A stretch of 42,985 nt of DNA from an uncultured cyanobacterium. GTDB taxonomy: Bacteria > Cyanobacteriota > Cyanobacteriia > PCC-6307 > Cyanobiaceae. A program made the translations under genes and the position numbers. Numbering within the stretch: the stretch's first letter is position 1; every line of letters starts with the position of its first letter. The stretch covers positions 1-42,985 of the forward strand of contig CAIZQU010000058.1 in the NCBI GenBank assembly GCA_903935205.1. Reading direction: 5' to 3'. The notes beneath the pieces are model-generated. The model was not told the DNA's origin, ran no database searches, and saw only the letters and a program-made list of their open reading frames with translations. Shown one piece after another: positions 4,861-14,516 of the stretch.

Positions 4861-5180
4861 GATTCAGAGTGATAGCCGGAAAACCAAATCACTCACAAGG
4901 CCGGGATCCCGGCTGAGGTCATCTGAGATGCGTGCCATAGCGACACTCCCCATCGTGGTCAGGCTGCGCATGGCGCGGGCTATGAGCCGATCATTCGCCA
5001 AGACAGAAGTGTCCCAGTCGAGAGCGGCGCCCTACAGATCGATCGCCACGCCTGCATCGCTCTGCCTCGCCCCGGCGAGGCGGTAGCTGCCGGCACGATC
5101 CATCAATCCGTGACAATGCGTGGCATGGTCAACGCGACCCCTGGCCAGCCCGGGGCCTGAGCAACCAGCCCATCCCAACA

Positions 5181-5252
5181 TGTCCAGATGTCCAGATGTC
5201 CAGATGTCCAGATGTTCAGATATCCAGATGTTCAGATATCCAGATGTCCACA
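5181..5252. repeat. 8-bp tandem repeat, nine copies
   Basis: Four exact copies of TGTCCAGA are followed by alternating TGTTCAGA and TATCCAGA and a final TGTCCACA. All three forward frames stay open through it, which creates several false reading frames. An octamer array of this kind is prone to slippage. Confidence 0.93.
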
Positions 5253-5518
5253 TCCGATGGATCATTGTGCATCTCGCAGATGGAATGGCCAGGTCTTCCG
5301 GCCTGCCGATGGAGCCATTTTGCTGCCATGGAAACCTCATGCGGCCGCAGCCGCCATCGCCAAAGTTGGGCGTGGTCGGCATCTTCATGCCCCTGGCATG
5401 GGGATGACAATCTGCGCCAATCCCTGCCGCCTGGAGCTTCACCTTGGCTCGCCCGTTGCCGCCCCAGCTGCTCAGCATCGCCCCCAGCCCATGGTCTCCC
5501 CATCGCAGGCCTGCAGCC

Positions 5519-5583
5519 CATCCTGCAGACACATCCTGCACGGTCATCCTGAACGGTGATCCTGCAAGGTGATCCTGAACAAT
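5519..5583. repeat. 13-bp tandem repeat, five copies, just upstream of the AraC gene
   Basis: Five successive 13-bp units share the core ATCCTGMA: CATCCTGCAGACA, CATCCTGCACGGT, CATCCTGAACGGT, GATCCTGCAAGGT and GATCCTGAACAAT. The array ends 30 bp before the proposed TTG start of the regulator. It could therefore be transcribed leader, or repeated operator sites for that or another regulator. Confidence 0.88.
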
Positions 5584-5613
5584 CAAACCGAGAGTTTTCA
5601 GCGCTGACCGGCC

Positions 5614-6603
5614 TTGCCCCATCCCCCTGCCGAGCCCTCGCCTCAGAACCCTCTGCTGGGTTCTGGATTGGCCACCGTGCTGCACACCGACGACTTCGGC
5701 TGCTGGCAGAGCGCCCTGGCCAACACCCTGGGACACCACCGCAGCGAACTTCTCAGCCCAGCCAAGGCGTTCAGGGCCCATTTCCGCATGGGCAGCCTCG
5801 GGCCGTTCACGGTGCTGCACCTGCAGGGGCGCGGCCGGCTGCGGCTGAACCGGGAACAACGGGAGCAGAGCCTGCTCTGGCTGCCGCTGCGGGGGATCTC
5901 AGAGGAGCGGATCAACGGACAGAGCTGGCTGGCCGAGCCCGGCAGCGGCCTGCTGTTTCAGCCTGGCGATGCGATGGAGGGTCAGACCGGTGAGCTGATC
6001 GAAGGCCTTTCGATCCTGATTCCCCATGGCCTGCATTGCCGCCCCGCACGGCCCTCCTCGCCGCTGCTGGCTGCGGGTCCGTTGCACCAGCGCGTGCTCG
6101 CCGCAGCAAGAGCCCTGGCCGTCGCAGCCGCGCATCAGTTCGGCGGTGCCGAAGTCGCCGCCGATCAGCTGACGGAGGCCCTGCGTGCGTGGACGGACTG
6201 GCAGGAGCAACCCCTGCGCCGGGAGCGGATCACCGCCCGGCGGCGGCGCCACACGGTGGAATCGGCGCGGCAGTGGATGGCGGACCGCCTGCCAGAGCGC
6301 TTCTCGATGGAGGAACTCAGCCAGGCGGTCGGAGTGTCGCCACGGCAGTTGCAGTACAGCTTTCAGGAGGAACGGGGCCGCTCACCGATGGCAGAAGCCA
6401 AGCGCCTGCGCCTGCAGCGGCTGCGCAGCCTGCTGCTTGATCCGAGCCACGATCAACGCCGTGTGACCGAAGTGATGGTGGCGGCCGGGCTGATCGCCTC
6501 GGGGGTGACCTCAGCGGACTACCGCAACTGGTGCGGCGAAAGCCCAAGCCAGACCCGGCTGCGTCGTCTCGGCCGCGATGGGGATCCCGCCGATGCAGCC
6601 TGA
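5614..6603 (+). CDS. AraC-family transcriptional regulator
   Basis: A 329-residue regulator. Residues 1 to about 190 resemble the cupin-like AraC_binding_2 ligand domain (FRAHFRMGSLGPFTVLHL and the strand-rich stretch after it). Residues about 215-325 form the double helix-turn-helix, with MEELSQAVGVSPRQLQYSF as the first recognition unit and GLIASGVTSADYRNWCGESP covering the second. The first codon taken is TTG 5614, since coding-like sequence precedes the first internal ATG; no Shine-Dalgarno site decides it. It sits alone behind a 13-bp repeat array and overlaps the next frame by 26 bp. Its targets and inducer cannot be told from sequence. Confidence 0.88.
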   Translation: MPHPPAEPSPQNPLLGSGLATVLHTDDFGCWQSALANTLGHHRSELLSPAKAFRAHFRMGSLGPFTVLHLQGRGRLRLNREQREQSLLWLPLRGISEERINGQSWLAEPGSGLLFQPGDAMEGQTGELIEGLSILIPHGLHCRPARPSSPLLAAGPLHQRVLAAARALAVAAAHQFGGAEVAADQLTEALRAWTDWQEQPLRRERITARRRRHTVESARQWMADRLPERFSMEELSQAVGVSPRQLQYSFQEERGRSPMAEAKRLRLQRLRSLLLDPSHDQRRVTEVMVAAGLIASGVTSADYRNWCGESPSQTRLRRLGRDGDPADAA

Positions 6604-6967
6604 ACACCTGTGGTTGAGCGTGCACGCGGTGCTGGGGCTGCTCTGGATCGCCCTGCTGACAAGCCGGGCCGAGGGGCGCTCGGGCATCGGGATCACCGGG
6701 CCGCAGCCGATCACCATGCCGGTGCTGGTCGGCTGGCCGGCTGGCCGGCTGGCTGCCATCGCTGGCCCTGGCGGCCTGGCAGGTGAAGCGCCGCTGGCGC
6801 TCCCTGCTCATCAGCGATCTGCTGGGGCCTTGCCGTTGGTTCTGCTGGCATTCAGCCTCTACCTGCCCCTGTTCTTGTTCAACGTGGCCTGGTTCCTGGT
6901 CCGCGTCCCCGAGGGTGGTGTGCTGAGCGAGCTGCCCGGGAGATGGCGGCCCAGCCGCCGGAGCTGA
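6578..6967 (+). pseudogene. Possible membrane protein, perhaps frame-disrupted
   Basis: The open frame gives 129 residues with two good transmembrane stretches, HLWLSVHAVLGLLWIALL near the start and LPLVLLAFSLYLPLFLFNVAWFL near the end. The middle (about 6745-6835) reads as low-complexity sequence in this frame. A neighbouring frame there reads like a third hydrophobic segment followed by a basic loop (WLPSLALAAWQVKRRW). The switch falls in the 8-bp slippage repeat CTGGCCGG at 6730-6752, so loss of one repeat unit may have broken an older gene. It overlaps the end of the AraC gene by 26 bp, which suggests co-transcription. The family is not recognised and the frameshift is an inference. Confidence 0.4.
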
Positions 6968-7487
6968 GCCTGGGCGCGAGTCAGCCGTGCTGCCGATGGG
7001 CACGCACCTGAAGATCCATCCGCGCCGCTACAACGGGAGCGGGGGGGCGGGTCTGAGGCGGGTCTGAGTCCAGGCCTGTTCCGTCGTCCCTTGCCGGGGC
7101 TGTCAGCATCGATGGCGGCCGGCGGAATGGCCCCCCTTCCTGGGAGCGACAGCTTCGCCGCCGCAACCGATCTCCAGCTGAACAGCTGGTTCAGGGCGAT
7201 TTCCGCTGCCCGGATGCTGTGTGTGTGTGTGTGGGGGGGGCGCCATCGGAGATGGGGCATTCCGCCATGGCGGCCACCCGCTGGACATGGTGCCAGCGAT
7301 CCCGACCAGCCGATCAGCGACGGCCAGCCCCTGGGAGGCTCGATGGCGACCGCAGTGGACGTTCGCTCCGCGTTCATCGCCCGGTTGTCAGGCGCCCGCG
7401 AAAACATCGGCCAGTCCCTGCCAGCGGAAGGCAAGCCACAACGGTCCGATCGGGAGGCGAGGGGCCGGGGGCAAGATGGAACGGGAG
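6968..7487. other. 520-bp spacer with simple repeats, no gene seen
   Basis: Between the membrane-protein frame and the end of the c-di-GMP operon no coding frame looks real. It contains two tandem copies of the 11-mer GCGGGTCTGAG (7047-7068) and a dinucleotide run (7218-7240). No T-rich terminator is visible for the leftward operon that ends at 7488. Confidence 0.5.
7218..7240. repeat. Simple repeat (TG)8 followed by a G-run
   Basis: Eight TG dinucleotides run directly into a stretch of eight G (counting the last G of the TG run). This is a potential slippage or Z-DNA-forming site within non-coding sequence. Confidence 0.9.
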
Positions 7488-9452
7488 TCAGGGAGGGGGT
7501 TCGGCGTGACCACGGCGCTCGTCCTGAGAAAGTCGTCGCCAGAAGTTGCTGCGCAGCCGCCGCCGCACGGCCCGCAGGCGCTGGGGATCGACCGCCAGAG
7601 CGCGGGGGCGGTAGTCGAGGGTCTCGAGCAGGGCGATCGCCTCGCTGACAGGCATCGGATGGTGAAAAAGGAAGCCCTGGGCAGCGCTGACGGCATGGGC
7701 GCGCAACCAATCGCGTTGGGAGGTGGTTTCCACACCTTCCGCCGTGATGCTCAGACCAAGATCGCGAAGCATCACGATCATGGTGCGTAGCAAGGTTCGG
7801 CCGGAATCGGCAGGGGCATCCAGATTCTGCACGAAGGCTTGATCGACTTTGACAAGCTGAATGGGCAGGGAGATCAAACGGGCCAGGGAGGAATAGCCCG
7901 TTCCAAAATCGTCGATGGCAATCACCACCCCGCGGGTCACCAAATCGGCCAGGAAACGCTCGAACAAATCGGTCTTGGCCTGGAAAGCATCTTCGACAAT
8001 TTCCACCTGCAGACTCCAGCCGGGCGGGCAGGGATTGTCATCAATCAAGGCCAGCAACCGCTGCTGTTGCTCACCATCTTCCAACAGCAGCCCTGAGAGA
8101 TTGACGCTCACTCGCATCTGCCGCTGGGGTATCGGACGCGCCAGCAGAGGCATTGCGGCAAGCGCCTTCTCCACGATCAGAAGATCCAACTCTGCGGTCA
8201 GGCCCGCCTCGGCGAGCATCGGGATAAAGCTGGAAGGCTTGAGTAATTGATCGCCGCGTTGCCAGCGGGCAAGGGCTTCAAAGCCAACCGTTTCCGAATC
8301 GGCTAGTGAGACGATGGGCTGCAGGTAGAGATCGAGAAGTTTGTCCTTTAATGCATCGCGAAGATCAGACTCAATGCGATAGTTTTCTTTTGCAATCAGC
8401 CGCGATTCGGCATCAACGAACCGAAACGAGCTACCGTTCATGCACCGCGCCATCTGAACCGCGATACTCGCATCAGAAAGAATGTCCTCAACCGTTTTGT
8501 AGTTGTGGTGGTAGGTGGCAATGCCGATCGACACTGCCAGCGATAGAGAATGCTGGCCATTGCGATAGGACTGGCCGGTCAGGGCAATGATCCGCTCCGC
8601 GACGCGCTGCATATCCTGGGTATCAACACCAAAAGGCAACAAGACCACCAGCTCCGTATCGGCAAACCTGGCCACCGAAGCACCCTTTGGCAGAGCGACG
8701 ATCAATCTCCTCGCCCCTTCATTGATGAATTCCTCCGCAACCAAGCCACCAAAGGTGGCACTGACACGCTCATAATCGCGAAACCGACAACGCAGCAGCG
8801 CGAATCTCGCATCTGTCTCCATGGCCAGAATCAGATCGAGCATCTTCAACATCTGATCGCGGCTGATCAGCTGATCCAGCGAGCGAAGGTCATCGCGGGT
8901 CAGCCCAGGGAGCATCTCTGGCGCCAGCCGCAACTGATGATCGCGGGACAAAGTTGAATGGCGCAGATTCTGCAGATGCTGCACAGTGAGTGCCGCCAAT
9001 CGGCGTAGACTTTCGATCTGATTAGCGGCAAGTGTGTGGGGGGTTCTGCTGATTGCACAAAGGCTGCCAATGGCAAAATTGTTGTCAGTAATCAGGGGGA
9101 AACCAGCATAAAAACGTATCCACGGCTCGCCTTGTACCAGAGGGTTATCCGCAAAGCGAACATCCCGATGAGCATCCTCAATGATCAGGGGTTCCCGCTG
9201 GAGAATGGTGTGTCCACAGAAGGAAATAGACCGTGGTGAGTGCTGCTGCCCCAGGGGCAAGCCGACGCAACTTTTGAACCACTGTCGGTCGCTATCGACC
9301 AGGCTGATGATGCCAATTTCCGTGCCAGCCAGATGGCGAGCCAACTCGCTGATATCGTCAAAACTCGCCTCTGCTGGGGTATCGAGAATCCCCAGGGACA
9401 TGAGCTCGCGCAAGCGGTCAACTTCGTTGGTTGGTGATTCGGGAGGCTGCAT
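7488..9452 (-). CDS. GAF / degenerate GGDEF / EAL cyclic-di-GMP phosphodiesterase
   Basis: From the ATG at 9452 the product has 654 residues and no membrane segment. Residues about 16-165 form a GAF domain (LGILDTPAE, then SISFCGHTI and FYAGFPL, a common sensory GAF type). Residues about 205-350 form a GGDEF fold whose active-site motif is ADTEL (264-268), so it cannot be a normal cyclase. Residues about 360-615 form an EAL domain with FEALARW (391), NLS (451), DDFGTGYSSL (514-523), VKVD (534) and AEGVET (571-576). The metal and substrate residues appear intact, so it should hydrolyse c-di-GMP to pGpG. It starts 4 bp after the upstream cyclase stop and is the last gene of the LOV operon. A longer start in the same frame would run into the cyclase gene and is unlikely. 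Confidence 0.92.
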   Translation of the reverse strand: MQPPESPTNEVDRLRELMSLGILDTPAEASFDDISELARHLAGTEIGIISLVDSDRQWFKSCVGLPLGQQHSPRSISFCGHTILQREPLIIEDAHRDVRFADNPLVQGEPWIRFYAGFPLITDNNFAIGSLCAISRTPHTLAANQIESLRRLAALTVQHLQNLRHSTLSRDHQLRLAPEMLPGLTRDDLRSLDQLISRDQMLKMLDLILAMETDARFALLRCRFRDYERVSATFGGLVAEEFINEGARRLIVALPKGASVARFADTELVVLLPFGVDTQDMQRVAERIIALTGQSYRNGQHSLSLAVSIGIATYHHNYKTVEDILSDASIAVQMARCMNGSSFRFVDAESRLIAKENYRIESDLRDALKDKLLDLYLQPIVSLADSETVGFEALARWQRGDQLLKPSSFIPMLAEAGLTAELDLLIVEKALAAMPLLARPIPQRQMRVSVNLSGLLLEDGEQQQRLLALIDDNPCPPGWSLQVEIVEDAFQAKTDLFERFLADLVTRGVVIAIDDFGTGYSSLARLISLPIQLVKVDQAFVQNLDAPADSGRTLLRTMIVMLRDLGLSITAEGVETTSQRDWLRAHAVSAAQGFLFHHPMPVSEAIALLETLDYRPRALAVDPQRLRAVRRRLRSNFWRRLSQDERRGHAEPPP

Positions 9453-9456
9453 TGCG

Positions 9457-10662
9457 TCAGGTGGCCAGTCGACTGAAAATCCGGCCCTCGCTCCAAGCAA
9501 TCCGGTTGCGGCCAGCTCGCTTGGCGCTGTAAAGAGCTTGATCGGCAGAGCTATATAGGTAGTCAAGGTTATAACCACAGTCCTCGGTGGCCACGGCCCC
9601 GATGCTCGCCTGTATGGTCAGGCGACGCCCCTGGTAGTGCAGGCGACTCATTTCCAGCTGCATCCTAAGCCTCTCCAGCGCACGGGCCGCATGCTCCCGA
9701 GGCAGGCTGATCAGGATGGCAAACTCCTCACCCCCCAAGCGGCAGAGCAGATCCTCACTGCGAACGACCGCACGAAAAATTTCAGCGACGTGCCGCAACG
9801 CTGCATCGCCACAGCCATGGCCGTAGGTATCGTTGATGCGCTTGAAGTAGTCAATATCGAGGATGGCAAAGACCAGATCAGCCTGACGCTCCTCCGCTTC
9901 GGCCAAAGTATCCTTGGCCAAATCCATGAACATGCCGCGACTCATCAGTTGCGTCAATGAATCGGTCTGGGCAAGTTCAGCGAGCCTGGGCACCACATAG
10001 GCGGACAGCAGGATCCAGAGAAACAAACCAAGCAGACCGCTCAATAAAAGCGAGATGATCAAGCAAAGAAAGGCTGTAAGGACTGAATCCAGCCCCAGGA
10101 CGCCGCAGTCGTAGTTAACAATGGCCAGATATCGTTCTCTGCTCATGCCAAGATCAACAGACGGCTTGTAAACGCCACGCACAACAGTAAATCGAGACAA
10201 GCGAGGCAGCATGTCAGGGCTGCGCAGATTCATGCAATCCTGTTGGGGGCGACGGAAACAGGACACGACATCACGAAATGACGAATCATCAGTCTCGAGT
10301 TGATTAACGAGAGGATCGGTAATCATGAGTTGTCGCCAACTCGATCTCGAGCCATAAATGATCTGTCCGGATTGATTGACAACAAGAATGAAGTTAAGCC
10401 CGTCCCTGTCCCGCTCGCGTGATGAGGTCCCATGGTTCTGGATCAGAGATTGCCGCTGCTCGTCCGTGAGCGGCGTTGCCAGGGCTGTCTGCACCAATTC
10501 AGTGCTGTGTTCAGCATCAGCGATCATCTGCCGCTGACGTTCCAGCAGACTGATGAACGTCAGGCAGAGGGTCAGCATCGACGTCGCCGCCAGGGCGAAT
10601 GCAAACACAAGCGAGCGGAGGAATGGGGCCGAATGACGCCATGGTGGTGTGGACACCGTCAT
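9457..10662 (-). CDS. Membrane-bound diguanylate cyclase (GGEEF)
   Basis: A 401-residue enzyme with a first transmembrane helix (about 15-40), a 150-residue periplasmic sensor region (41-190) containing Cys135, Cys143 and Cys186, a second helix (about 191-224) and a cytosolic GGDEF domain (about 230-392). The active site reads GGEEF at 310-314, the metal-binding DIDYFK lies at 269-274, and RSED at 301-304 is a classic RxxD inhibitory site five residues upstream. It should therefore make c-di-GMP from two GTP and be product-inhibited. Its ATG overlaps the upstream stop (ATGA), so it is translationally coupled to the LOV protein gene. The sensor region is not one I recognise. Confidence 0.92.
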   Translation of the reverse strand: MTVSTPPWRHSAPFLRSLVFAFALAATSMLTLCLTFISLLERQRQMIADAEHSTELVQTALATPLTDEQRQSLIQNHGTSSRERDRDGLNFILVVNQSGQIIYGSRSSWRQLMITDPLVNQLETDDSSFRDVVSCFRRPQQDCMNLRSPDMLPRLSRFTVVRGVYKPSVDLGMSRERYLAIVNYDCGVLGLDSVLTAFLCLIISLLLSGLLGLFLWILLSAYVVPRLAELAQTDSLTQLMSRGMFMDLAKDTLAEAEERQADLVFAILDIDYFKRINDTYGHGCGDAALRHVAEIFRAVVRSEDLLCRLGGEEFAILISLPREHAARALERLRMQLEMSRLHYQGRRLTIQASIGAVATEDCGYNLDYLYSSADQALYSAKRAGRNRIAWSEGRIFSRLAT

Positions 10663-12161
10663 GGCTTGGACCCTGATTTGAGCAGCACTTCACCAAGATC
10701 ACTGATGGCAGCCGCGAGGAGGCGATGGGCCTCCTGCTCGGCTATCAGAAAAGCTTCAAACTCTGGAACCACCGTGGTGGCGGTGTCGAGGTAACGGCGC
10801 ATTCCCTCCGAAAAGCGTCTGGCCTGCTCCAAGGATTTCCTGGCGGAATCGAAATCAGACTGGAGCGGGATCAGCACATCACTGAGCGGGCCTGCCTGTT
10901 GCTTCAGCAGGCTGATATCAACCTGGTTGCCGACATAGTATTCAGGATATTCAGGCCGCTCCTGATGGGTACCGTAAACCGGATAGATGGTGAGGCGATT
11001 CCAGAAGCGACCGCCATCGGCACGGTAGTTGATCAACTCTCCTGTGTAGGGCTTGCCCTCCTTGATTGCCCGTCGCAATTTTTCCAATTCAGCAGGGTCT
11101 GTCTCAGGCCCGTGTAAAAAGCGGCAGTTGTAGCCAATGGCCAATTCGCGGCTGTAGCCGGTAATGGTCGTGAACGCTTCATTCACATAGATCAGTGGGG
11201 CATCGGGCCGGCGCATATCCGCGATCGCAATGCCGAACGTCGCATTGTCAACAACATGACCAAAGACCGATAATTCGCGGATCTGATCAACCAGCTCAGA
11301 CGCCATCAGCGAGTCCTTGCGATTCGCATCGATTAATTTCTGATTGACCTTGGCCAGCTGCCTGGTCTGGTTGCGAAAAACCGATGTCGCCGCCACCGAA
11401 GTCAGACCGAGAAATCCCACATATCCGACCAGCAGACCAAGACTGCCAAAGCCATTCACCTGAATGCCACGGATCGTGACCTCCTGAATACCGCGGACAT
11501 CACCGACCTTCCAGTCGCGCTTGGGTGAATCCGGGTGCGTGTTGTGGCAGGTCACGCAAGCCTGGCGCATCAAGACCGGCGTGGCCATGCGGTAGGAGGA
11601 GGATCCCAGTCCATGGCCATTAAGCTGGGTGAAGACCTTGCGTTGCGGATCGGAGCGAAACACTCTGAGTGCTTCAAGCTCAAAGGAATCGAGGGGGTGG
11701 GAAACTCGCTTGGCAAATGGATACTCGGAAACAAAATTATATGAAATTCGGCCATCGCTATGGGCATTGTCAAACAAGGCACCCAATTCAATCGACAACG
11801 TCGCTGGAATAGGGATGCCGCCATGCACATTGCGGTAATTTTCAGAATAGACCGCCTTGCCATCGGCGGCCTGGAGGCGGGCAATCACGTTGTCAGCGTA
11901 GTAAGCGCGAATCCCACTGGCCAGCGTCGAGATCTCATCGGCCTGCAGCTTCATCTGGGCCACGGTGGCCTTGGACAACGCCGACAGCATCATCAGCGGC
12001 AACAACAGCACCGCCAGGACCAACAACCACAACACCAGATCGGGTCGCCAAAACCGACGCCATAGGGCGATCAGCCTCTGGCCCAAGCCAAACAGCCGTC
12101 GCACCAGGACTCGGGCCACGGCGCTGACCAAGGGCTGATCTCCTGCTCTGGGATGAACCAT
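10659..12161 (-). CDS. Heme (DUF3365/Tll0287-like) plus LOV photosensor protein without output domain
   Basis: A 500-residue membrane protein. Helix one spans about 43-63. Residues about 65-235 match the Tll0287-like/DUF3365 sensor, with a c-type heme site CVTCH at 202-206 and the family-typical DWKVGDVRGIQEV after it. Helix two spans about 238-258. Residues about 299-418 form a LOV domain: GYNCRFLH at 343-350, where Cys346 would make the flavin adduct, then ELINYRADGGRFWNRL, and VGNQVDIS with the hydrogen-bonding Gln413. A helical tail of about 80 residues ends the protein; no kinase, GGDEF or DNA-binding domain follows. The heme domain should face the periplasm and the LOV domain the cytosol. 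It heads the operon with a cyclase and a phosphodiesterase. Light or redox control of c-di-GMP is the natural inference. Confidence 0.9.
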   Translation of the reverse strand: MVHPRAGDQPLVSAVARVLVRRLFGLGQRLIALWRRFWRPDLVLWLLVLAVLLLPLMMLSALSKATVAQMKLQADEISTLASGIRAYYADNVIARLQAADGKAVYSENYRNVHGGIPIPATLSIELGALFDNAHSDGRISYNFVSEYPFAKRVSHPLDSFELEALRVFRSDPQRKVFTQLNGHGLGSSSYRMATPVLMRQACVTCHNTHPDSPKRDWKVGDVRGIQEVTIRGIQVNGFGSLGLLVGYVGFLGLTSVAATSVFRNQTRQLAKVNQKLIDANRKDSLMASELVDQIRELSVFGHVVDNATFGIAIADMRRPDAPLIYVNEAFTTITGYSRELAIGYNCRFLHGPETDPAELEKLRRAIKEGKPYTGELINYRADGGRFWNRLTIYPVYGTHQERPEYPEYYVGNQVDISLLKQQAGPLSDVLIPLQSDFDSARKSLEQARRFSEGMRRYLDTATTVVPEFEAFLIAEQEAHRLLAAAISDLGEVLLKSGSKP

Positions 12162-12516
12162 AGGTGAATCATCCCCTGCCAGGCGAGTGGCAGGGGTGAC
12201 TGGGTCCGATCAGATGCCCGTCCGATCGTCCCTTGCCCCCCAACACACGGTCAAACCTGACCTGGCCTGGATGGGGCTGAGCTCGATGCCATCCAGGTCG
12301 CGTTCAACCAGGTCGAACCGATTCGAGGCCCCTGCGGGACGGGGGCTGCAAGGGCTCGGAGCCAGGATCGCCGAGGCACCGGCCAAGGGTGGACGAGAGA
12401 CGCCGGGGGCGATGGCAACAGCGCCAGCACGATCCTTGAACGGCGCGATGGCGGACATCAGGAATCAGAGCACCCCAGGCCCTCGCATCCAGATCGGCCC
12501 CAGCAGGGCCCAGACC
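12162..12516. other. 355-bp spacer upstream of the LOV operon
   Basis: It lies between the LOV operon start and the end of the AbrB-like gene, both on the minus strand. It holds the hairpin at 12173-12196 and must contain the operon promoter. An 82-codon minus-strand frame (12210-12458) does not look like a protein. No clear promoter boxes or terminator were recognised. Confidence 0.4.
12173..12196 (-). promoter_or_regulatory. Perfect 9-bp hairpin/operator just before the LOV gene start
   Basis: CCCCTGCCA pairs perfectly with TGGCAGGGG across a 6-base loop. It ends 11 bases before the ATG at 12161. In the leader RNA the GC-rich stem would contain the only purine-rich SD-like bases, so it could hamper ribosome access; as DNA it is also a good dimer-binding site. 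Confidence 0.55.
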
Positions 12517-12888
12517 TCACTCCTCTTCGTCACCGCTGCCGGCAGGAACCAGGCGGATCTGCTTGCGGCCGAGCTTGATTTCAAACTCATCGCCAGGCTT
12601 GAGGTCGAGCAGGGCCGTGTAGGCCTTGCCAACCAGCAGATTGCCGTTGCCCTGGACCGTGGCCACATAGCTGAGCTTGCGACCACCCTTTCCGGCGGCC
12701 GACTTGCCACCGCTCTCGCCGAGGCTTACGCCTTTGGCCTCCAGCAGGGCCTCGTAGAAGGCGGTGAAGTTCAGGCGCTCCGTGCCGTCCTTCTTGGTGC
12801 TGACGTAGCCGCAGGCACGGACGAGATCGCTTTTGCTGGCATCGCCGATCTCCTTGACCTTGGCGAGGAGTTCAGACCCGGTAAGCAT
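12517..12888 (-). CDS. AbrB-like transcriptional regulator (cyAbrB family)
   Basis: A 123-residue protein of the cyanobacterial AbrB type. It has an N-terminal helical part (residues 1-55, beginning with a TGSELL-type motif), a basic glycine/lysine linker (56-68) and a C-terminal swapped-hairpin AbrB-like DNA-binding domain (about 70-115, VATVQGNGNLLVGKAYTALL then GDEFEI). An acidic tail ends the chain. Cyanobacterial members are abundant nucleoid-associated regulators involved in carbon/nitrogen balance and other global responses. The start is the ATG at 12888. It is a single gene with its own upstream spacer. The family is certain; which paralogue (cyAbrB1 or 2) is not determined. Confidence 0.92.
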   Translation of the reverse strand: MLTGSELLAKVKEIGDASKSDLVRACGYVSTKKDGTERLNFTAFYEALLEAKGVSLGESGGKSAAGKGGRKLSYVATVQGNGNLLVGKAYTALLDLKPGDEFEIKLGRKQIRLVPAGSGDEEE

Positions 12889-13229
12889 GGACTTGACTAG
12901 AACCGACCTCTCAAAGATAGCGCCTCATAGGGATGCGTGCACCCCCCCCCACTCCTGGCCAAGGCTTCCAACCTTCTGCCGCAGCCTCTCTGGCAAGGGG
13001 ATGGACTAGCCCCGCAGCACCGCTATCCGGTTCCCCGTCAGCCCGGGCGGAGCCGCAGCAAACGGTCGCACGGAGTTGAGCCGATCCATCTCTCCCCTGG
13101 CCTCCAGGATTGGGGCTCAGGGGGTGGCGATCACCCTGAACCTCCCGCGCACCCTGACGCGCCAGGTTCAGGGTCTGCCCGCTGGCGCAGGCGGACCATA
13201 CTGCCCACAGATCCACTCACCACCTGCAT
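12889..13229. other. 341-bp divergent spacer between cyAbrB and the CNNM gene
   Basis: It must hold the promoters of both flanking genes. The part next to cyAbrB is AT-richer (a TATCTT on the minus strand, around 12911-12918, could be a -10 box). A nine-C run lies at 12942-12950 and a strong stem-loop at 13133-13174. No reading frame in it looks coding. Confidence 0.45.
13133..13174. promoter_or_regulatory. Long stem-loop upstream of the CNNM gene
   Basis: ACCCTGAACCT at 13133-13143 is perfectly complementary to AGGTTCAGGGT at 13164-13174. The 20-base interior contains short GCGC complementary arms, so the hairpin could extend. It lies 55 bp before the start codon of the transporter-like gene and is not followed by T residues. 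A leader regulatory structure, a small RNA or an operator are all possible. Confidence 0.5.
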
Positions 13230-14516
13230 ATGCGCTACCTGGCGCTGGCGACGCTGCTGGCCCTGATGGCCTTCTTCGCTGCCGCTGAATTAGCCCTGAT
13301 CCGCCTAAGGCCGAGCCGGGTGCAACAGCTGCGCGAAGACGCTGTTCCGGGCGCTCAGTCCGTGGCTCGCCTGCAGCAGCGGCTGCGCCGGTTGCTGGTC
13401 GCCACCCAGCTCGGGTCGGTGCTGGCCCTGCTCGCCATCGGCTGGATCGGCCGCGGTCTGGCCGGACAGCTGGGTGCCGCCTTCGCCAGCGTCATCGGCC
13501 AGGGCTGGGTCGATGGCCTGAGTTTTCTGCTGCTGGTGCTGCTGGCCAGCGTGATCGGCGGTCTGCTGCCCAAAGCCTGGGTCTTGCACCGGCCCGAGAC
13601 CTCGGCCCTGCAATTGGCGCCGCTGCTGGAATCCCTCACCGGCACGCTGGCGCCCCTGCTGCTTTTAATTGAGCGCTTCAGTGCCGTTCTGCTGCGACTG
13701 CTGGGGCTGCCGCGCAACTGGGATGAGCTGGTGCCGGTGCTCTCCGCCGGTGAGCTGGAAACCCTGATCGAGAGCGGCGGGGTGACCGGGTTGATGCCCG
13801 ATGAACGCAGCATTCTCGAAGGGGTCTTCTCCCTGCGCGACACCCTGGTGCGCGAGGTGATGGTGCCCCGCTCAGGAATGGTGACGCTCGATCTCGATGT
13901 CTGCTTTGCCGAGATGATGGAGGCGGTCCACAGCAGCCAACACGCCCGCTTCCCGGTGATCGGCACCTCCCTGGATGATGTGCGGGGCCTTCTCGACCTG
14001 CGTCGTCTCGCCGAACCGATTGCCCGCGGCGAACTCAAGCCCGATACACCCCTGGCCCCCTACATGCTGCCGGTGGCCCAGGTGCAGGAAAGCACCTCCC
14101 TGGCCGACCTGCTTCCCCTGATCCGCAGCGGCCAGCCCCTGCTGGTGGTCGTCGATGAACACGGCGGCACCGAAGGGCTGGTGACCGTCGCCGATCTGAC
14201 CAGCGAGATCGTTGGAGAGGACGAAAATCCCCTCGAGGCCGCTCAGGACCTCCAGCCCCTGAGCGAAGGCGGCTGGTCGGTGGCGGGCGACCTGGAGATC
14301 TTCGAGCTCAACCGGCAGCTGTCCCTGCAGGTGCCGGAGGCTGAGGACCACCACACCCTGGCCGGCTTCCTGTTGGAGCGCTTCCAGCACATCCCGGCAG
14401 CGGGTGAAAGCCTGCGCTGGAAGGGGGCCCGTTTCACGGTGCTGAGCATGGATGGCCCACGGATCGAGCGGGTGCAGATCCTGCCAGCGGCGGCGAGGGA
14501 ACCTGATCACCGATAA
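13230..14516 (+). CDS. CNNM/CBS-domain membrane protein (hemolysin C / CorC-like)
   Basis: A 428-residue protein with the usual order of the family. An N-terminal CNNM (DUF21) membrane domain covers about residues 1-165 and opens with a hydrophobic helix and an AAAELALIRLRPSRV stretch. A CBS pair spans about 195-325 (REVMVPRSGMVTL and LVVVDEHGGTEGLVTVADL), and a CorC_HlyC C-terminal domain about 335-420. Bacterial relatives act in magnesium or cobalt efflux and the CBS pair binds adenine nucleotides. The ATG at 13230 is preceded by a long stem-loop. The Gfo/Idh gene follows after 26 bp on the same strand and may be co-transcribed. The transported ion is inferred from the family only. Confidence 0.9.
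   Translation: MRYLALATLLALMAFFAAAELALIRLRPSRVQQLREDAVPGAQSVARLQQRLRRLLVATQLGSVLALLAIGWIGRGLAGQLGAAFASVIGQGWVDGLSFLLLVLLASVIGGLLPKAWVLHRPETSALQLAPLLESLTGTLAPLLLLIERFSAVLLRLLGLPRNWDELVPVLSAGELETLIESGGVTGLMPDERSILEGVFSLRDTLVREVMVPRSGMVTLDLDVCFAEMMEAVHSSQHARFPVIGTSLDDVRGLLDLRRLAEPIARGELKPDTPLAPYMLPVAQVQESTSLADLLPLIRSGQPLLVVVDEHGGTEGLVTVADLTSEIVGEDENPLEAAQDLQPLSEGGWSVAGDLEIFELNRQLSLQVPEAEDHHTLAGFLLERFQHIPAAGESLRWKGARFTVLSMDGPRIERVQILPAAAREPDHR

Follow-up and report, generated by a model that had tools for sequence, protein, structure and literature searches.

A conserved three-gene unit of Cyanobiaceae encodes a putative heme-LOV membrane sensor beside two opposing c-di-GMP enzymes

We analysed a stretch of 42,985 nucleotides (contig CAIZQU010000058.1 of assembly GCA_903935205.1; hereafter the window, meaning the whole stretch) from an uncultured cyanobacterium of the family Cyanobiaceae. 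In it, three coupled genes encode a membrane sensor with a c-type heme domain and a LOV domain, a diguanylate cyclase (DGC) and a cyclic di-GMP (c-di-GMP) phosphodiesterase (PDE). These three genes are a conserved unit in the family, and we consider it probable, with some reserve, that the sensor is a two-input receptor which controls both enzymes by protein contact. It would read an extracytoplasmic heme input, most likely nitric oxide (NO) and otherwise redox, and would read blue light through its cytoplasmic LOV domain. As the sensor lacks an enzyme domain, contact would have to carry the signal onward, reaching the DGC through parts in the membrane, next to it and on its extracytoplasmic side, and the soluble PDE probably through a C-terminal helix pair; production and degradation of a single c-di-GMP pool would thereby be driven in opposite directions.

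The trio lies on the minus strand, from 12161 to 7488, in the order sensor, DGC, PDE; the window's genes and domains and the hairpin described below are on this strand. The sensor gene (10659..12161, 500 aa) encodes a predicted membrane helix, the extracytoplasmic c-heme Cache domain, a second predicted membrane helix, the LOV domain and the helix pair. It overlaps the gene for the membrane DGC (9457..10662, 401 aa, with a GGEEF motif and an RxxD motif, which we take to be the I-site) by the four nucleotides ATGA at 10659-10662. After a gap of 4 bp follows the PDE gene (7488..9452, 654 aa from its ATG), with GAF, degenerate GGDEF and EAL domains; a longer open reading frame (ORF) from a GTG at 9578 offers an alternative start. 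The initial annotation, made from the window alone, had proposed this coupling and these domains, and both are confirmed, the former by the ORF coordinates and the latter by Pfam and, consistently, NCBIfam. The frames are not chance, because they are conserved in 17 (sensor), 15 (DGC) and 14 (PDE) aligned relatives with active-site residues kept, at identities of 51-65%, 32-51% and 39-63%, respectively. Profile searches of the window genome gave one match for PF11845, the family of the heme domain, seven for EAL and twelve for GGDEF (11 over the cut-off).

A survey of 300 family genomes with the sensor profile found 17 that match at E 1e-20, and 14 of these hold 17 sensors with both heme and LOV domains. 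A separate DGC profile over 300 family genomes gave 17 hits at E < 1e-140, all within the 14 carrier genomes, each sensor having one such orthologue next to it, including a DGC split over two frames (G203) and one that opens contig C87 while its sensor ends contig C15 (G292; the remainder of the sensor tail is readable on C87). A PDE gene comes next after the DGC at 16 of the 17 loci, truncated in G236 where the contig stops. The remaining locus is in Synechococcus sp. GreenBA-s (G150:C20, L033), where a PAS-GGDEF-EAL gene on the other strand stands instead of a co-directional PDE. Sensors occurring without the enzymes had been named beforehand as the observation that would speak against the proposal; none of the 17 lacks a DGC, and one lacks a co-directional PDE. 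Intergenic gaps range from -4 to +13 bp in the loci with fixed starts, and a DGC-PDE gap of 44 bp was seen in L023. An eighteenth sensor (L028) came from a separate contig scan of relatives (80 of 117 kept, as 79 loci), in which 12 cyanobacterial loci (L022-L033) span heme and LOV and the other 67 gave no LOV hit in the heme-domain ORF. Across the phylum, 102 of 386 genomes matched; among the matches listed, a span of both domains is confined to two genomes of this family, G000 and G062, with none outside it, and the remainder cover either heme or LOV (G009, of the same family at 1.2e-17, is not among the matches listed). The heme-only matches in G127, G144 and G177 proved to be heme-Cache guanylate cyclases rather than stand-alone relatives of the sensor, and an apparent sensor-DGC fusion in L030 (a 1030-aa ORF) was a read-through in another frame upstream of the DGC. 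As a separate observation, three family loci, L091 (the protein scanned for G177), L118 and L119, fuse the heme-Cache domain to an adenylate/guanylate cyclase domain through a linker resembling HNOBA.

The three proteins are also inherited together. Maximum-likelihood trees were compared over the 14 of 18 loci with all three complete; the DGC alignment omits L023 (two frames) and L022 (on another contig), and the PDE alignment omits L022 for the same reason, the partial L024, and L033, whose PDE is on the other strand. Out of 11 splits, the sensor shares 7 with the DGC and 7 with the PDE, and the two enzymes share 9. The tree distances correlate at 0.887 (sensor-DGC), 0.878 (sensor-PDE) and 0.964 (DGC-PDE), values reached by 0 of 2000 label permutations. 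Each tree divides the loci into two types, A and B, at 99-100% support. There are three copies in GreenBA-s (G150), of which the trees include two, and two in G223; in both genomes the type A and type B copies take matching branches in all three trees.

The heme domain of the sensor (11472..11963) is Tll0287-like (DUF3365, sCache_heme). It matched PF11845 at 1e-20 in the genome profile search, above the curated cut-off, and at 5e-20 over residues 67-230 in Pfam (72.8-75.8 bits against a cut-off of 24.1). Its c-type heme attachment motif CVTCH (residues 202-206, 11544..11558) has C202, C205 and H206 invariant in 18/18 aligned sensors, and the domain would bind heme covalently; a profile match above cut-off together with CXXCH were the features tested for sCache_heme membership, and the window sensor has both. 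The two cysteines of the motif are the sole ones in the domain and none precedes it, so an axial Cys is absent, as in the NO-sensing, signalling type of sCache_heme. A preprint of 2026 (PMC12889525) reports slow NO release and the lack of a stable oxy complex for one signalling-associated member of that kind, and redox-protein behaviour for one stand-alone member that has the axial Cys. Because the window sensor, like the NO-binding signalling member, has no axial Cys, NO appears at least as likely as redox as the heme signal. The initial annotation had called the protein a light/redox sensor, of which the light half agrees with the photoresidues described below and the redox half now has to share its place with NO. 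Should the heme domain instead be a redox (electron-transfer) module, with light entering through LOV alone, it would behave like the stand-alone member; we regard this alternative as serious although rather doubtful, since that type has the axial Cys and the window domain has only the CVTCH pair. The axial-Cys rule, used here both for the NO assignment and against the redox module, derives from one residue and two characterised proteins in one preprint. Searched against PDB sequences, the heme domain gave chance matches only (a porin at E 0.016) and did not reach 5B82 or 3B47. The fold-search lists were filled by LOV and GGDEF proteins, and hardly covered the heme domain or the extracytoplasmic domain of the DGC.

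The LOV domain (residues ~303-421, 10899..11255) carries its photoactive Cys346 in the motif GYNCRFL. It was detected by Pfam as PAS_9 (2e-17, residues 319-417), and its best LOV match in NCBIfam was the YtvA family at 2e-35 and 122 bits, which is below the whole-protein cut-off of 250. C346 is invariant in 18/18 aligned sensors, as are N378, N388 and Q413, presumably flavin contacts, and these residues also line up with YtvA (2pr5) and with 4r38; the domain would bind flavin. The predicted sensor model (mean pLDDT 73 overall) has a LOV fold, aligned by VIA-align to 9vf7 with Z 19.0 and a root-mean-square deviation (rmsd) of 2.8 over 137 residues, and to the LOV-activated DGC 8c05 with Z 18.1 and rmsd 1.9 over 124 residues. 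In the same model long helices flank the heme domain; by eye they contain the membrane spans, and from both the topology given above appears likely. Neither Pfam nor NCBIfam found a catalytic output domain in the sensor, and the split design proposed initially is thus borne out; Pfam also gave no BLUF and no HNOB (H-NOX) match. After the LOV domain the model predicts a C-terminal helix pair (residues 424-500, 10662..10892, with helices at 427-460 and 466-497), a possible docking element. This tail, with everything after LOV, is missing in the L033 sensor, that is, at the sole locus without a co-directional PDE. In L022 the sensor tail is interrupted by a contig break, and its remainder is readable on the next contig. 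Superposition of the tail on the helical part of LOV-kinase chimeras (4gcz, 8a3u) gave rmsd > 10 A, which is too weak, and was not used. Two neighbourhoods may be recorded here: the tail-less sensor and DGC of L033 (7878-10387) begin 75 bp downstream of a gene that looks by eye like an SdhA-like flavoprotein, and in L114 (type B) the sensor is preceded on its strand, at a distance of 162 bp, by a gene of 508 aa that by eye is photolyase/cryptochrome-like.

The DGC has a GGDEF domain (9502..9972; Pfam and GGDEF profile, 6e-43 in Pfam), its sole domain over cut-off. GGEEF at 310-314, D269, N277 and D278, among others, are invariant in 16/16 DGCs; taking the GG(D/E)EF motif and the metal and substrate residues as signs of an active cyclase, as we assume, the enzyme looks catalytically intact. 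An extracytoplasmic part (residues ~39-192, 10087..10548) was delimited by eye and from the model (pLDDT 83 overall). Before residue 225, besides the start Met, only G99, C135, C143 and L179 are strictly invariant (16/16), and the Cys pair, 7 to 15 residues apart across the DGCs, is likely to form a disulphide. More distant relatives of the enzyme stand next to genes for periplasmic binding proteins of the NMT1/THI5-like kind: in L152 (Pfam) and L157 (by eye) the DGC comes directly after two such genes in tandem, and in L156 (by eye) one lies directly before it and a second ~1 kb after. Because relatives directly follow such genes, this type of DGC, we suggest, often takes its signals from separately encoded extracytoplasmic proteins.

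The PDE combines GAF (8985..9371, 3e-12), GGDEF (8445..8876, 3e-16) and EAL (7656..8366, 5e-55) domains, with no further domain in Pfam. Its GGDEF motif, ADTEL in the window, is degenerate in 15/15 aligned PDEs. The EAL domain keeps E392, N451, E484, D514-D515, K535 and E572, a series invariant in the same 15/15 which we take to be the catalytic set, and the PDE likewise looks intact. Two opposing enzymes, both apparently active, are thus encoded in one operon, as had been proposed. The type A PDEs, the window's included, have a clear GAF domain (10/15), and in type B it is changed or missing (5/15).

A link that is not visible from the window alone, and that the initial annotation did not contain, emerged from the relatives. 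A comparison of the flanks of 17 loci placed NdhF- and NdhD-like genes next to seven of them, in most cases together with a ChpXY-like gene. In L027 NCBIfam identified an NdhF3-family protein (TIGR01960, 658 bits against a cut-off of 588.7), an NdhD-like protein and a CO2 hydration protein (TIGR01964, 746 bits against 293.7), and Pfam a fasciclin protein in the same cluster, which we take to be CupS; the CO2-uptake genes of the other loci were assigned by matching to these proteins. The trio is inside or beside the ndhF3-ndhD3-cupA-cupS operon in 7 of 11 informative type A loci (of 12 in total, the window included, L024 is too short to tell), always co-directionally. It splits the operon, with ndhF3 before it and ndhD3 after it on the one strand, in L027 (5961-16032), L028 (5937-16083) and L106 (2041-12444, with ndhF3 split over two ORFs), 36-157 bp after the preceding gene and 162-292 bp before the following one. 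In L022 the order is ndhF3-ndhD3-cupA-cupS, a small gene, then the sensor, as also in L032 with a 1.35-kb gap; in L023 the small gene and the trio precede ndhF3-ndhD3-cupA; and in L025 the trio is followed after 1.6 kb by ndhF3-ndhD3, where the locus ends. We count four arrangements and not seven independent events because the loci are related. By simple arithmetic, random placement would qualify in ~0.3% of cases (~18 kb of 3 Mb, one strand).

These data raise the possibility that the trio is an accessory unit of CO2 uptake, in which the heme-LOV protein would primarily monitor redox state or gas content on the lumenal or periplasmic face of NDH-1MS-bearing membranes, with c-di-GMP relaying the result to the CO2-concentrating mechanism (CCM). 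We hold this only tentatively; it is compatible with control of both enzymes by contact, and both can hold. Besides the co-directional placements, it draws on a review (PMC13249358), according to which carbon supply governs the ndhF3 operon and, in Synechocystis, the c-di-NMP receptor ComFB is complexed with SyCRP1, a regulator of some CCM genes. Placement, however, argues for co-regulation at most. The trio is not near the operon in the window, in L105 and in five type B loci, and it lies beyond 6 kb in L029 (11.7 kb downstream of cupS, same strand) and L026 (10.5 kb from the other ndhF3-family cluster of its genome, opposite strand). The window genome itself has its ndhF3 operon uninterrupted on another contig (C115, L158), apart from the trio; there, as an observation of its own, a 742-aa GGDEF gene with a PAS-like part by eye (5670-7898, plus strand) converges on the end of ndhF3-ndhD3-cupA-cupS. 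No report tying c-di-GMP genes to the ndhF3/NDH-1MS operon was found by word searches of the literature covered, which was mostly without subscription papers; the published tie through SyCRP1 and ComFB is indirect.

Several points weigh against control of both enzymes by sensor contact. We infer the contact itself from gene evidence, and the link between tail and PDE comes from a single locus, L033. The trees disagree at 4 (sensor-DGC), 4 (sensor-PDE) and 2 (DGC-PDE) of 11 splits, and a permutation test leaves in place whatever agreement stems from the common ancestry of the host genomes. The unit is not found in 286 of the 300 family genomes. The extracytoplasmic domain of the DGC may give the cyclase its own input, and the GAF domain may do the same for the PDE, so that the separate sensor proposed initially as controlling both enzymes may not be their only input; the GAF domain, being altered or gone in the PDEs of type B, cannot be a general docking point. 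Moreover, the DGC homologues of G051 and G084 (E ~1e-121) have no sensor alongside and sit in an ATP-grasp/transglutaminase cluster (Pfam on L150; the ORFs of L151 are equal in length), which shows that this DGC type can exist without a heme-LOV sensor. On these grounds (the invariant Cys pair, GAF in 10/15 PDEs and sensor-free DGC relatives) the three proteins might be co-expressed but independent, needed at the same time, with the sensor acting elsewhere, the DGC answering to its own extracytoplasmic domain and the PDE to its GAF; we consider this unlikely, given that no sensor was found without a DGC in the family survey and that the sensor, with no detected output domain, is encoded upstream and overlaps the DGC start.

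Other features were recorded around the unit. Immediately before the sensor, L022 (7511-7912), L023 (7296-7850), L029 (7419-7877) and L032 (7066-7557) carry a small gene (133-184 aa); its products in L022, L023 and L032 had no match in domain scans, and by eye the start is lipoprotein-like in some loci. It occurs in 6 of 300 family genomes, all six of them trio carriers, at ~50 kb from the trio in G140 and with a weak match in G195 (1.2e-7); the window genome gave no match at E 1e-5. In the window, a possible 9-bp hairpin (12173-12196) lies 11 nt before the sensor start codon, with a stretch in its 3' arm that by eye resembles a Shine-Dalgarno sequence. A 66-nt fold of this leader had z -3.08 (0/200 shuffles as good), but a 100-nt fold favours a different structure over the hairpin (z -2.26, 6/200 shuffles), and an Rfam scan of 5000-14000 returned no family match, the hairpin included. 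About 355 bp upstream of the sensor gene and on the same strand is an AbrB-like regulator (PF14250, 12517-12888), and an 8-bp unit, ATGTCCAG, is repeated in tandem 8.9 times at 5180-5250.

Control in trans has precedents, and as far as we searched it is this combination that is new. In Rhodopseudomonas palustris PapB, a BLUF protein without output domain, controls the separate EAL enzyme PapA via C-terminal helices (PMC8846402); the trio resembles this pair in joining an output-less photoreceptor to a separately encoded EAL enzyme, and differs in that PapB is a BLUF protein without heme and a DGC partner is not mentioned there. Similarly, the heme NO sensor H-NOX modulates separately encoded c-di-GMP enzymes (HaCE; PMC12329717), with another heme domain and no mention of LOV in the passages covered. 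DosC and DosP (dgcO-pdeO), a DGC and a PDE from one operon, form a complex that answers heme ligands (PMC8846402), but there the heme is inside the enzymes and no separate sensor exists, whereas the window DGC and PDE have no heme domain by Pfam. For the sCache_heme domain itself, fusions to GGDEF/EAL are known (PMC12889525, in which the word LOV does not occur), and other bacteria were found to have it in one protein with GGDEF or with GGDEF-EAL (L088, L089, L093); the window sensor and its enzymes are separate proteins. Examples of LOV acting on c-di-GMP turnover are SL2 of Synechococcus elongatus (PMC8846402, PMC13001216) and the LOV-activated DGC of 8c05, in both of which LOV is fused to the enzyme and, in the material covered, a heme domain goes unmentioned. 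The short LOV protein PmSB-LOV has PmlR2 as its neighbouring effector (PMC9758184). An output-less membrane receptor of heme-c Cache and LOV with both enzymes adjoining was not met in the literature searched. The initial annotation knew of no described example; within the literature searched this is true of the combination, and it has to give way for separate sensors and DGC-PDE operons in general, and for the heme domain, which is not new to c-di-GMP proteins.

In summary, the unit offers a natural dual-input receptor, with covalent heme outside and LOV flavin inside, apparently working on two opposing c-di-GMP enzymes in trans. Each part alone has a precedent, and reconstitution could therefore test this logic. 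The repeated association with ndhF3-cupA is likewise a concrete and testable link from c-di-GMP to inorganic carbon supply in picocyanobacteria, and suggests that some freshwater members may connect light, a redox or NO signal, carbon supply and c-di-GMP. It is conceivable, though at present we would not expect it, that a light- and gas/redox-gated c-di-GMP switch is built into the CO2-concentrating mechanism, its heme sampling the lumen or periplasm and its LOV domain blue light. If this is true, the trio would be made together with the low-CO2-inducible NDH-1MS, its heme sampling the lumen or periplasm that supplies NDH-1MS with CO2, and the switch would report the combined light and heme signal to carbon uptake, adhesion or motility via c-di-GMP.

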